64,000 nt of DNA from Planctomycetia bacterium (GTDB lineage Bacteria; Planctomycetota; Planctomycetia; Gemmatales; Gemmataceae), in NCBI GenBank assembly GCA_005808665.1, contig SYLG01000013.1:1-64000 (forward strand). The letters are read 5' to 3'. The position numbers were made by a program, and so were the translations under genes. Under the pieces are notes generated by a model. The model made no database searches. It was not told the origin of the DNA and saw nothing but the letters and a program-made list of their open reading frames with translations. Positions 58,501 through 64,000 of this stretch are shown piece after piece. Every line of letters starts with the position of its first letter. Positions within the stretch are counted from its first letter, which is position 1.

Positions 58501-59364
58501 TCAACGGGTTACCTGATGCGTGTCCCTTGAAATCGTCAGGCAAAGCTGCTCAAGGGGTAAATCATTGGGATCGGTACCAAATGGCGCTTCGGTTTCGACC
58601 CCAGCTTCCTCAATTCCAAGCATACCCAGGGAAACAACGGCAACAATAATCGGCCCGGCAAGCCCCATTTTTTCCAAAAGAACAAAAGGAAGTGTAAACA
58701 GGTAAACCAAAAGTATCTGTTTGATAAGTGTCGCATAAACAAATGGCAAGGGAGTTTTGGAGATTTTTTCACACCCCCCCTGGCTGTCAACCATTTTGGT
58801 TAATAGTTCTTCCATGGATTGAGCCATGCGAAAGTCAAGTTTTCCCTCAGCCTGGCGGCGAAAAATCCATTCACTAATCCCTTTGGCTATGATCGTTGGC
58901 GGATTTCCCGACCGGGTCGCTTTTTCAAAGATGTTGGCGGGAACCAGGTGACTTATTTCGTCCAGATCGATGTCATTTCGAAGGGTTTGTTTGACGGCCA
59001 GGACATATCCACTGATAAGATTGGCCAGATCCTCAGCCTGGCCACCGGCATAAACATGACCCATCCTTGCCAAAGTCCGGCAACTGTTAATCATGATTCC
59101 CCAATGGGACCTCGCTTCCCAATATCGGGCGTTTGACGCATTGGTTCGAAACACAATCAACAAACCGATCGTTGACCCTAAAATGGTGTGTCCCAAAGGG
59201 TCCAAATGCAGGGCAGTCCAATTGGCTGGGAGCACCTCCTTGAGGGTGTGCAACAAAAGGCTCAACGAGGTAATCAAGGCAACCCGACCAAGAATGGCGG
59301 GAATGACTGTTCCCTTGTAACTAAACGCCAATTTCGTCCAGGCATTACGATTATAGATGATCAT
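58501..59364 (-). CDS. Bestrophin family (UPF0187) membrane protein
   Basis: LGSTIGLLIVFRTNASNARYWEARSHWGIMINSCRTLAR. Confidence 0.9.
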   Translation of the reverse strand: MIIYNRNAWTKLAFSYKGTVIPAILGRVALITSLSLLLHTLKEVLPANWTALHLDPLGHTILGSTIGLLIVFRTNASNARYWEARSHWGIMINSCRTLARMGHVYAGGQAEDLANLISGYVLAVKQTLRNDIDLDEISHLVPANIFEKATRSGNPPTIIAKGISEWIFRRQAEGKLDFRMAQSMEELLTKMVDSQGGCEKISKTPLPFVYATLIKQILLVYLFTLPFVLLEKMGLAGPIIVAVVSLGMLGIEEAGVETEAPFGTDPNDLPLEQLCLTISRDTHQVTR

Positions 59365-59390: not shown

Positions 59391-62084
59391 CTACTTAATC
59401 TGTTGCCACCAGGATTTTGGAAACAGATTTAATGGTTTTGGGTTGGTATTATTTTCCCATTCCGAGTAGGGATCATTTTCCTGGAACCCGGCTTCCAAAA
59501 GGCGGGTCATGGTGAGCCATCGATCCATGGCGGTGATTTGCTGGTCTTTCGACCGCTGGGGCTGGTGAACAAAATGCGGAAAAATATCAGGAGGGATGTG
59601 GTTGGTTTCATCCGTAACAACCAGGCCCTGGTCCCGGATTTGGGCAATACGCACCCGGAATTGGGTGTAGTTGTTTGGGAGGATATGGGCAATTCCAACC
59701 GGGCTTTCCCATGCTTCCTCGTGAAGGGAATGGAGGACCAAATCAACATCAAAACTTTTGGCCTTTTGCACAGCCTGAATCCAAAGGTTTATCGCAATGA
59801 ATGCCTTGACCATGGAATCAGAAACCAATATTTTTTCTCCCATTTGTTTACGAATGAGGGTCAGGAATTCGGCATTGGCACGAGTACGAAGGTTCATGAA
59901 ATAATTGGCAACAGCATAATCCCCCTTGAGGAGACCTTGATGTTCCTTCTGGATTGCATCCAGTTTAACCTCATCCAAAACCAGATGAATCATGGGAAGT
60001 TTTTCACTGGTAAACCCTTTTTTACGCATTTCGCCAACCAATGCGGCAATTGCCCCGGGATGGGCAATAGTGGATACAATGAAATCGGGATTTGCCGCGG
60101 TTAGGGCATCTGCGATTTTTTCAACATGGCTAAAAGGGGGAAGCAAAGGCAAAAAATCATACCCAACCAAGGTGTGCGTATTGGCATAGTTTTTTTCCAT
60201 AATCATTTTTGTGTATTGAACAATCGATCGTGAACCTACATCATCCGTTCCCACCATGAAAATTTTGCGCTCCAAACCATTTTTTGATCCAAATTTAAGG
60301 CTTAATTCCAAGGCTGGTTCGAGCAATTGATTGGGAATTGGGCCCATGTGAATGACCCCGGGAAAATTGTCCATTCCCTCGCCGATACTGGGATAAAAAA
60401 GGAGTCCATGGTAATTAAGCAGAATCTCTGCCGATCGCCTCCGAAAGGGTGGGGTGGAGCAGCCAAAAATGGCCGCAACTTTTTCTGTATCCAGCAGATG
60501 AGCCGTTTCCTTTGCATTCTCCGATGGGGAGGATTTCGCATCCCGTTCCACAAGGGTAAGTTGATTTCCAAGCAGGGTGTTATCGGGAACCAGAATCTCC
60601 AGGGCAGCCCTGCATATGTTCAGAAGTGGTTCGTCCATGGCTGCCATATTCCCGGTTTTGGAGAATAACAAACCAATTTTTACTTCGGGGAGGGCCTCAA
60701 TGGTGGGGGGATTAGCCCATTTGATAATTAGGGTGATAATGGGATAGGTCGCCGCAAGGATCATGATCAAAATGCTTGCGCCAAGGGCCAAAAATCGCTT
60801 GGGGGGACGCCTGTTTTCCTCGAATTCCTTAACCCCTGAAGGTTGGGAAATACCCACTTTGGATTCAGAAAATTTATGGCCATTACTTTCACGATCGCCG
60901 AGGATCTGATCAATCCTCGAAATCACACTTTTTGCGTTGGGAAGCCTTTTGTCAGGGTCTTTTGCCAAAAGATCCTCGAGCAATTTCAGGATGTTCCGAG
61001 GAAGCGTTTTACCAGCAACCTCTAAATCCGGAGCTTCTGCCTCAACAGTGGCCCTGAGCACGGCCATAGTATTTTCACCCTCAAAGGGTGTTTTTCCACA
61101 AAGACACTTGAATAATAGGCAACCCAAACCGTAAAGATCGGTTCGTTGGTCACAAGGCAACCCATAAATTTGTTCGGGTGCCATATAACTTGGCGTCCCC
61201 ACCACCATTCCGTGGTGGGTAAGGGAGGAATCCTGATTGACAGGCTTGGCTAGTCCAAAGTCGAGGATTTTTACCCGGCGAAATTCCCCGGTATTCGGGT
61301 TAATTTCTATCCAAATGTTGGCTGGTTTTATGTCCCGGTGGATCAGGTTACTTTGGTGGGCATCATTTAATCCCTCCGCAACTTGCCTGATGTAACCCAA
61401 CGCTTCCCGGCTTGGAAGGAAGGTACTACGGCCAAGTTTTGCCTCCAGGGTTTCACCATGAAGGAATTCCATCGACAAAAAAGGAACCGTTTGTGCATCA
61501 GGGCCTGTCCATTCCCCGACCCGGAAAACCGTAACGATATGTTCGCTTTGCAAATTGCCAGCAAGCCTGGCTTCTTGCAAAAACCGTTGTTTGTAACTTT
61601 CGTCAACTAATTCGGTCCTCAAAATCTTAAGAGCAATGCGCCTTTTTAAATCTTTGTCCTCCGCTTCGAAAACAACACCCATACCGCCAGTGCCAATGAC
61701 CCGAAAAAGCCGATAATTGGAAATCCACCCCATCTCCCCTTCGGCTTCTGGTGGATCCATAAAAGGATAGGGATTGTCAGGGTCGACAATTTTTGCTGCC
61801 GGTGCCGCCATGTCAGCCGATTCTTTTACGGAATTATCTTTGGATGGTTCCTCCCCATCCTGATTTTTTCCTGCCAAAGCCGATTGGGATTCCTGGTTGG
61901 GAATGGGGTCCTTGTTTTCCTCTTTGACCTGCTTGATCAGCAATTCCCGCAGGATTCGTTGGCAGGCCTTGCACCCGCCAAGGTGTTTTTGCATTTCCTC
62001 ACGGAAAGATGGGTCAAGGGTGGGATCCAGCTTTATCCGGGAAAGGTTTTCGGGAAGCGGACAGCCAGATTTTTCCGCCATCAT
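59391..62084 (-). CDS. Membrane Ser/Thr protein kinase with zf-HC2-like N-terminus and C-terminal UrtA-like (Peripla_BP_6) sensor domain
   Basis: EEMQKHLGGCKACQRIL (H-x3-C-x2-C); kinase VIGTGGMGVVFEAEDK, LIHRDIKPANIWIE, ILDFGLAK, SYMAPEQ; TM LGASILIMILAATYPIITLII; VKIGLLFSKTGNMA...VAAIFGCSTPPFRRRSAEILLNYHGLLFYPSIGEG. Confidence 0.9.
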   Translation of the reverse strand: MMAEKSGCPLPENLSRIKLDPTLDPSFREEMQKHLGGCKACQRILRELLIKQVKEENKDPIPNQESQSALAGKNQDGEEPSKDNSVKESADMAAPAAKIVDPDNPYPFMDPPEAEGEMGWISNYRLFRVIGTGGMGVVFEAEDKDLKRRIALKILRTELVDESYKQRFLQEARLAGNLQSEHIVTVFRVGEWTGPDAQTVPFLSMEFLHGETLEAKLGRSTFLPSREALGYIRQVAEGLNDAHQSNLIHRDIKPANIWIEINPNTGEFRRVKILDFGLAKPVNQDSSLTHHGMVVGTPSYMAPEQIYGLPCDQRTDLYGLGCLLFKCLCGKTPFEGENTMAVLRATVEAEAPDLEVAGKTLPRNILKLLEDLLAKDPDKRLPNAKSVISRIDQILGDRESNGHKFSESKVGISQPSGVKEFEENRRPPKRFLALGASILIMILAATYPIITLIIKWANPPTIEALPEVKIGLLFSKTGNMAAMDEPLLNICRAALEILVPDNTLLGNQLTLVERDAKSSPSENAKETAHLLDTEKVAAIFGCSTPPFRRRSAEILLNYHGLLFYPSIGEGMDNFPGVIHMGPIPNQLLEPALELSLKFGSKNGLERKIFMVGTDDVGSRSIVQYTKMIMEKNYANTHTLVGYDFLPLLPPFSHVEKIADALTAANPDFIVSTIAHPGAIAALVGEMRKKGFTSEKLPMIHLVLDEVKLDAIQKEHQGLLKGDYAVANYFMNLRTRANAEFLTLIRKQMGEKILVSDSMVKAFIAINLWIQAVQKAKSFDVDLVLHSLHEEAWESPVGIAHILPNNYTQFRVRIAQIRDQGLVVTDETNHIPPDIFPHFVHQPQRSKDQQITAMDRWLTMTRLLEAGFQENDPYSEWENNTNPKPLNLFPKSWWQQIK

Positions 62085-62241: not shown

Positions 62242-62946
62242 ATGACTCGGATTATCAAGGGCGTTTTCGACTTCCAGAAGAATGTCCATGGGACCCGTGA
62301 ACAGCTTTTCAAAAATTTGGGCTCTGGACAAAAACCGCTAGCCCTTTTCATCACCTGTTCCGACTCGCGCATTAGTCCCGATATGCTCACCCAAACCCAA
62401 CCGGGTGAGTTGTTCATCATGCGAAATGCGGGTAATATTGTCAGCCCATATTCATGGGATCATGCATCAGGGGAGGCTGCCACTCTTGAATATGCGGTTA
62501 AACAACTTAAGGTTCGTGAAGTGATTATTTGTGGCCATGCAAAATGTGGGGCCATTCACGGGCTATTGAACATGGACAAACTGGATGCACTTCCCGAGGT
62601 AAAACGGTGGCTCCAATTTTCCGAGCCTGTTTTGGCTGCGCTGAAACGGGATACAGAAGGGATGTCACAAGAAGAAATTTTGGCCATTGGGATTGAACGA
62701 AATGTCCTTCAACAGCTTGAAAATGTAAAATCGTATCCCTTTGTCCGCGAAGCAGTTGATCGTGGGGAGTTAAGGCTTCATGCTTGGGTTTACCATTTTG
62801 AAACAGGAACCGTCCTTGCTCACGATCAAACGAAAAAACGGTTTGTTTCGTTAAGTGACGCCACCAAACCCAAATTCAACGCAACCAAAGAAGAGATTGA
62901 ATCCTATATCAAATCCCATCAAGGTGGCATGGATTTAACCATCTAG
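62242..62946 (+). CDS. can: Beta-carbonic anhydrase
   Basis: FITCSDSRISPDMLTQTQPGELFIMRNAGNIV, VIICGHAKCGAIHG. Confidence 0.95.
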   Translation: MTRIIKGVFDFQKNVHGTREQLFKNLGSGQKPLALFITCSDSRISPDMLTQTQPGELFIMRNAGNIVSPYSWDHASGEAATLEYAVKQLKVREVIICGHAKCGAIHGLLNMDKLDALPEVKRWLQFSEPVLAALKRDTEGMSQEEILAIGIERNVLQQLENVKSYPFVREAVDRGELRLHAWVYHFETGTVLAHDQTKKRFVSLSDATKPKFNATKEEIESYIKSHQGGMDLTI

Positions 62947-63058
62947 AAGGAATTTAATGGTTTCGGACTTGATTGCAAAGCCCGACCTCCCAATCTTAAT
63001 CTCTTTGAATGACATGGGGCCTTCCCCTGCTTGCTTATCACGAAGGAGTCAAAGTCGA

Positions 63059-64000
63059 ATGGTCAAAAATGCCGAGCCCGAAGTCCCCAGTCAAACATGG
63101 CAAATACCGGAAGCTTCTGATACTTATGGCGTTCATAACTGGGGAAAGGGTTACTTCGGCATCAACTCTTTGGGGCATGTTACTGTTATGCCTGCCAAGG
63201 ATCCTGCCTTGGCTATCGACCTCAAAGACCTGGTGGAGCAACTCCGGGCCAGGGGGATTCAACTTCCCATCCTGCTTCGCTTCACGGACATCCTGAGACA
63301 TCGGGTAGGGGACCTCCACGAAGCTTTTCGAAAAGCCATCGCCGAATCCGAATACGGTGGCAACTACCTTTGCGTTTACCCCATCAAGGTCAACCAACAA
63401 AGGCAGGTTGTCGAAGAAATCCTCGATTTCGGCCGTCCCTTCGGTTTCGGCCTTGAAGCAGGTTCCAAGCCGGAATTGCTAGCGGTCCTTTCGTTAACCA
63501 ATGACAACGAAACTCCCATTATTTGCAATGGCTTCAAGGATGATGAGTTTATCCGGATGACCATGATGGCCCGGAAATTGGGCAAGCAGATCATTCCCGT
63601 TGTGGAAAAATTTACCGAATTGGAACTCATTCTTCGTCATGCCAAGGAACAGGGGGTGCGCCCTGCCATTGGTGTCCGGGTCAAGTTGGCAGCCAAGGGG
63701 GCAGGCCGATGGCGATCTTCCGCAGGGTATCGGTCGAAATTCGGCCTTACCCTTTCGGAAGTATGTGAGGCCCTGGAACTCCTCAAGACCTATGGGATGG
63801 AGGATTGCCTCCAACTCGTTCATTTCCATTTGGGTAGTCAGATCACCAACATCCGGAGTATCAAAAACGCTCTCAACGAAGCGGCCAGGGTCTATTGCGA
63901 ACTGGCATTGTCCGGTGCGGGGCTCAAATTTCTCGATGTTGGGGGTGGCTTGGGAATTGACTACGATGGTTCCCAAACCGATTTTGAATCCAGTACCAAT
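63059..64000 (+). CDS. speA: Biosynthetic arginine decarboxylase, 5' part, truncated by the window end (not in supplied ORF track)
   Basis: Frame from ATG 63059 (AGGAGT upstream) reads MVKNAEPEVPSQTWQIPEASDTYGVHNWGKGYFGINSLGHVTV...GGNYLCVYPIKVNQQRQVVEEIL...HFHLGSQITN...LDVGGGLGIDYDGSQTDFESST. Confidence 0.94.
   Translation, partial: MVKNAEPEVPSQTWQIPEASDTYGVHNWGKGYFGINSLGHVTVMPAKDPALAIDLKDLVEQLRARGIQLPILLRFTDILRHRVGDLHEAFRKAIAESEYGGNYLCVYPIKVNQQRQVVEEILDFGRPFGFGLEAGSKPELLAVLSLTNDNETPIICNGFKDDEFIRMTMMARKLGKQIIPVVEKFTELELILRHAKEQGVRPAIGVRVKLAAKGAGRWRSSAGYRSKFGLTLSEVCEALELLKTYGMEDCLQLVHFHLGSQITNIRSIKNALNEAARVYCELALSGAGLKFLDVGGGLGIDYDGSQTDFESSTN

Follow-up and report, generated by a model that had tools for sequence, protein, structure and literature searches.

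The window, by which we mean the whole 64,000-nucleotide stretch of contig SYLG01000013.1 analysed here, carries close to one end a gene for a receptor Ser/Thr kinase, set between a bestrophin gene and a beta-carbonic anhydrase gene. The bestrophin gene lies 26 bases past the kinase stop codon on the same strand. On the other side, the anhydrase gene stands head-to-head with the kinase gene, divergent from it and not co-transcribed, and beyond the anhydrase is a gene for a SpeA-like arginine decarboxylase. Coordinates and supporting scores are collected in Table 1.

Table 1 Features of the kinase locus, in positions of the window
Feature	Position	Strand	Evidence
Bestrophin gene	58501..59364	-	Bestrophin_2 (PF25539) 251.2 bits, cut-off 27
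Receptor Ser/Thr kinase gene, 897 codons plus stop	59391..62084	-	Single open frame; orthologues L004/L033, L005/L034
Conserved C-terminal tail (WEN...P...WW), residues 840-897	59394..59567	-	Alignment; modelled helix 846-870
UrtA/AmiC-type ectodomain, residues 468-839	59568..60683	-	Peripla_BP_5 (PF13433) 204.2 bits, cut-off 27, profile positions 1-361 of 363
Transmembrane (TM) helix, residues 432-457	60714..60791	-	Full-length model and hydropathy peak
Kinase domain, residues 124-382	60939..61715	-	Pkinase 166.8 bits, cut-off 31.7 (Pfam profile search)
zf-HC2-like segment, C8...H34-x3-C38-x2-C41	61962..62063	-	zf-HC2 (PF13490) 19.5 bits, cut-off 22.2
Beta-carbonic anhydrase gene, divergent from kinase	62242..62946	+	Pro_CA (PF00484) 161.5 bits, cut-off 25.7
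SpeA-like arginine decarboxylase gene, cut by window end	62957..64000	+	Orn_Arg_deC_N 123.5 bits

An earlier note, made from the letters of this DNA, had described one 897-residue frame joining an N-terminal zinc-finger-like segment, a complete PknB-type kinase, one TM segment and a C-terminal UrtA-like domain. The single frame is borne out, as is the completeness of the kinase: the motifs HRDIKPAN (residues 249-256), DFGLAK (275-280) and MAPEQ (301-305) are all present, and K153, E171, D251, N256 and D275 are invariant among 13 aligned sequences. On its motifs this is a Hanks-type (PknB-like) Ser/Thr kinase, predicted to be active. The match to the PASTA receptor kinase model NF033483 (250.2 bits) falls below the cut-off of 450 and ends after the kinase, and a profile search of the protein found no PASTA repeats. 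In the zinc-finger-like segment the Cys-His-Cys-Cys pattern is there and a homologue from another family (L236) scores 31.0 bits at the same position, above the cut-off, but the score of the window protein itself is slightly too low; the model places two short helices in this part (25-37 and 39-56). In the full-length model (mean pLDDT 76.6), disordered linkers flank the kinase on both sides and a helix preceded by the basic stretch RRPPKR fits the single TM segment.

Both stretches that had been quoted as UrtA-like lie inside the binding-protein domain, which also gives a weaker, overlapping Pfam match to Peripla_BP_6 (138.6 bits). The score against TIGR03407, the UrtA model, is 179 bits against a curated cut-off of 492.75, and the protein is therefore not UrtA itself. 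A model of the ectodomain reached a mean pLDDT of 94.3 and a pTM of 0.93, and its best Foldseek matches in the PDB were urea-binding proteins and AmiC (8tg1, E 1e-32; 8hic, 1.9e-29; AmiC 1pea, 7.4e-26, with a TM-score of 0.89 by target length). The structural comparison with UrtA and AmiC thus supports a predicted type-1 periplasmic-binding fold that is nearest to these two proteins. As a whole, the protein reads as a single-pass membrane receptor kinase, with the zf-HC2-like N-terminus and the kinase inside and a two-lobed UrtA/AmiC-type domain outside.

Two further MAGs of the genus encode the same domain order; their ectodomains share 83% and 57% identity with that of the window protein. 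Going by named records, the protein belongs to Gemmataceae-type MAGs, the nearest record being 'Gemmataceae bacterium isolate Baikal-deep-G173'. Compared with the 83% orthologue, the kinase has a dN/dS of 0.026 and the ectodomain one of 0.093, with 0.056 in its N-terminal part; the C-terminal tail (841-897) stands at 0.054, the linkers at 0.29-0.51 and the bestrophin at 0.024. With dS at about 1, these values are rough. Purifying selection on both kinase and ectodomain is nonetheless clear from these alignments. The earlier note had raised the prospect that a sequencing frameshift had fused two genes, and we consider a frameshift or assembly artefact practically inconceivable, because the layout is shared by same-genus orthologues from independent MAGs and both parts are under purifying selection.

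What the earlier note missed is the conserved order of carbonic anhydrase, kinase and bestrophin, and this is the stronger finding. Nine proteins, including that of the window, make up a subfamily sharing the WW-ending tail (the others being L033, L034, L036, L043, L044, L045, L050 and L055). This subfamily was gathered via its ectodomain and not via its neighbours; bestrophin lies directly downstream in every one of the nine, and the divergent carbonic anhydrase is present wherever the contig is long enough. A bestrophin-first search of 95 family genomes added further cases. Two kinases with another type of ectodomain (L146, L189) keep the same three-gene order, as do six short kinases with no ectodomain at all (L186, L187, L188, L195, L196, L205), which have 453-472 codons and end just after the TM helix; having come from the bestrophin search, the short kinases are not an independent test of linkage. 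Carbonic anhydrase was not found beside the bestrophin-linked kinases L235 and L236. In 19 other kinase-UrtA fusions (17 loci) neither bestrophin nor carbonic anhydrase was seen in the flanks, some of which end with the contig. Kinase-free pairs of adjacent bestrophin and carbonic anhydrase genes on one strand also occur in other genera or families of the class, in L238, L239, L241 (Pfam), L202, L203, L242, L243 (the last two by similarity), and in the other families such adjacency is frequent. We found no description of the kinase/bestrophin/carbonic anhydrase gene set in the literature searched.

The SpeA-like gene is kept in the WW-tail subfamily and is also seen past the anhydrase in L033, L036, L044 and L055/L145. 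It is an associate of this ectodomain subfamily, and as a part of the module it is unproven. Decarboxylation frees CO2 and uses up a proton, which would be in keeping with a role in pH or CO2 balance.

The fifteen kinases of the three-gene module form one clade (support 99/95) in a 53-row tree of kinase domains. When two bestrophin-linked kinases from other families are included, all 17 group with weaker support (87/82); the fifteen are again a clade (97/82), with the two added sequences branching just outside. Other kinase-UrtA fusions also branch just outside the module clade, so the simplest history would be that the short-kinase branch lost its ectodomain. Module members are scattered in the ectodomain tree. 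This scatter fits either fast divergence or replacement, with long branches making placement unsure; the stem of the window's genus measures 2.51 changes per column in this tree versus 0.32 in the kinase tree. Through replacement and loss of the ectodomain, the gene order persists in at least three families and several genera.

In UrtA, nine residues surround urea, S122, Q144, Y190 and N246 hydrogen-bond to it, and the W120A substitution abolishes binding (PMC10392092). With this residue list, pocket positions were read off a MAFFT alignment that included the 8hic sequence. At the nine positions the residues of the window protein are S, P, Y, I, E, D, G, A and V, which leaves two of the nine urea residues and none of the four that form hydrogen bonds; W120, S122, Q144, Y190, F192, N246 and S274 are all replaced. 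Nearly all homologues keep S122; the three members of the genus all have proline there and an acidic residue (D, D, E) at position 190. The genome yielded no urease alpha subunit, no free-standing Peripla_BP_5 protein (UrtA) and no UrtB above cut-off. Owing to the lost pocket residues and to a genome in which urease, UrtB and free-standing UrtA were not found, urea is an unlikely ligand for the window protein. Of the one-protein sensor that the earlier note had proposed, the receptor Ser/Thr kinase with a UrtA/AmiC fold stands, and the urea or amide ligand is unsupported. The pocket has probably switched or lost its job, in a domain that is still under purifying selection.

Two other ligands were considered. 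Agmatine or another polyamine, prompted by the SpeA neighbour and the acidic position 190, is kept merely as speculation, since SpeA was not seen beside the short-kinase modules. Bicarbonate is an attractive candidate in being planar like urea, but the acidic residue 190 does not favour an anion.

Pockets elsewhere in the family are better preserved. The bestrophin-linked relatives L036, L199 and L022 keep eight of the nine urea residues and all four hydrogen-bonding ones. Across the bestrophin-linked kinases, then, the pocket is changed in several and the ectodomain lost in one branch, and the neighbours stay constant. All nine urea residues are kept in several other kinase-UrtA fusions and free-standing proteins, and also in a paralogue in the same genome (C155:44827-45906, L001; L136 5110-7491), a kinase-TM-UrtA fusion of 793 aa. 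Its intact pocket makes this paralogue a good candidate urea-sensing Ser/Thr kinase.

About 30 UrtA-type receptor kinases were found, recurring across Planctomycetia. In 57 related genomes and a sample of the phylum, many UrtA-type domains shared their frame, 790-960 codons long, with a kinase. A scan of named genomes, patterned on five subfamily sequences and non-exhaustive, returned kinase fusions from planctomycete records in every case; outside Planctomycetota, just free-standing or other forms were met within the scans made. No plasmid record covers 80% of any kinase-UrtA fusion. The earlier note had called such an ectodomain unusual, and the word is a relative one: the combination of kinase and Peripla_BP_5 is not rare within its group. 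The NCBI pipeline has a product name for fusions of a kinase with an ABC substrate-binding domain. In the main-text passages searched of a survey of accessory domains on planctomycete kinases (PMC11032199), the UrtA-type domain is unnamed, and the supplements of that survey may list the architecture.

Tandem pairs of kinase-UrtA fusions occur at single loci in two genomes (L140 and L144; G010 and G029), and their urea pockets differ. Elsewhere in Planctomycetia, three proteins (L153 6686-9526, L024 and L135) start with a UrtA-type domain followed by what, read by eye, appears to be a hybrid histidine kinase with H-box, HATPase and receiver domains; neither a signal peptide nor a TM helix is obvious in them. 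Two of them (L153 and L135) carry WTSAS...YPVQYEG...SDYVFPR, as urea binders have. Proteins of this type are possibly cytoplasmic urea sensors.

Because the output side is constant while the input side varies, the kinase of the window most likely serves the bestrophin/carbonic anhydrase pair. We infer that this planctomycete set handles inorganic carbon, anions or pH, and that the receptor kinase tunes the set in response to a signal from outside. The ectodomain would read an extracytoplasmic cue other than urea, and lobe closure or a change in dimerisation would be relayed through the TM helix to the kinase. Phosphorylation of either neighbour, bestrophin or anhydrase, or of a partner common to both would then tune bicarbonate or anion flux and the CO2-HCO3- or pH balance. 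Bicarbonate as the ion of these bacterial bestrophins is borrowed by analogy from algal relatives, BST1-3, which have been proposed to transport it along with thylakoid carbonic anhydrases (PMC6708349). The ectodomain-less branch cannot sense by the same route. Taken whole, the reading that an input-swappable receptor kinase controls inorganic-carbon or anion flux, rather than sensing urea, seems to us evenly poised between right and wrong. A more specific form of it is rather doubtful: here the receptor kinase would gate a bestrophin bicarbonate or anion channel by phosphorylation, together with the anhydrase, its sensor being swapped, re-tuned or dropped as the output stays constant, and the genus of the window would have turned a urea receptor to another small molecule.

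Other explanations differ over the ectodomain or over the target of the kinase. Urea-binding proteins and AmiC are the closest matches by fold and by sequence, and bestrophin-linked relatives with near-complete urea sites exist; both points favour a domain that recognises urea or a short amide and signals this to the kinase. We hold this view to be very improbable, however, given the stripped pocket, the proline in place of S122 in all three members of the genus, the loss of urea binding in UrtA from the W120A change alone and a genome in which urease, UrtB and free-standing UrtA were not found. A cleft that binds no small molecule is harder to dismiss. The domain might instead be a structural or protein-binding module, acting in dimerisation or on a periplasmic partner, with crowding or that partner driving the kinase; the very long stem of the genus in the ectodomain tree would agree with this, as would the branch that manages without any ectodomain and the precedent of AmiC, which acts via protein contact with AmiR (structure 1qo0). 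Yet purifying selection on the domain is clear, most of all in its N-terminal part, and the shared acidic position 190 looks as if a new ligand had been chosen, which leaves this explanation a tentative one, possible and on the unlikely side.

The kinase could also be merely co-transcribed with the bestrophin, the gene order reflecting shared expression and the true targets being unrelated, for example global regulators. Hanks kinases of bacteria commonly act on many substrates, 28 kinase matches in the genome exceed the Pfam cut-off, and a shared operon is by itself no proof that a kinase phosphorylates its neighbours. Against this, the order has outlasted both replacement and loss of the ectodomain, it extends over at least three families and several genera, and similar fusions exist without it; we regard mere co-transcription as unlikely.

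The gene order offers a concrete candidate pathway for a planctomycete receptor kinase, in which carbonic anhydrase and bestrophin would be the outputs. It also suggests a role for bacterial bestrophins in inorganic-carbon or pH control. With urea pockets that are intact in some relatives, altered in others and absent in the rest, beside constant neighbours, the family amounts to a natural experiment in which the input changes and the output is kept. Sister fusions with complete urea sites, one of them in the same genome, could be genuine urea-sensing Ser/Thr kinases.

Among known systems, the urea-binding UrtA/Peripla_BP_5 proteins (8tg1, 8hic, 7s6e, 7s6f) resemble the ectodomain in fold, length and overall sequence. 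Unlike them, the window domain is tethered to a kinase, has lost the urea residues and scores far below the TIGR03407 cut-off, in a genome with no UrtB above cut-off, and its neighbours are bestrophin and carbonic anhydrase. AmiC of Pseudomonas aeruginosa (1pea, 1qnl, 1qo0) likewise uses a UrtA-like fold for regulation and not for transport, but is a separate protein that binds AmiR, whereas the window domain is fused across the membrane to its kinase. PknB-type receptor kinases with PASTA or other ectodomains also have a kinase inside, one TM helix and a C-terminal ectodomain; the window protein differs from them in its type-1 periplasmic-binding ectodomain and zf-HC2-like N-terminus. Other planctomycete kinase-UrtA fusions (such as L001) have the same order of kinase, TM helix and Peripla_BP_5, but many retain the urea pocket, and neither bestrophin nor carbonic anhydrase was seen next to the ones that fall outside the module clade. 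A further likeness is to GlnH-GlnX-PknG of Actinobacteria, mentioned in the kinase survey (PMC11032199), where a binding protein informs a Ser/Thr kinase about a nutrient. That system comprises three proteins and a binding protein of another family, whereas the window system is one polypeptide. We know of no receptor kinase fused or linked to the algal BST1-3. In Chlamydomonas, BST1-3 (PMC6708349) are a comparable but algal case, bestrophin-type channels proposed to work with thylakoid carbonic anhydrase in bicarbonate handling.
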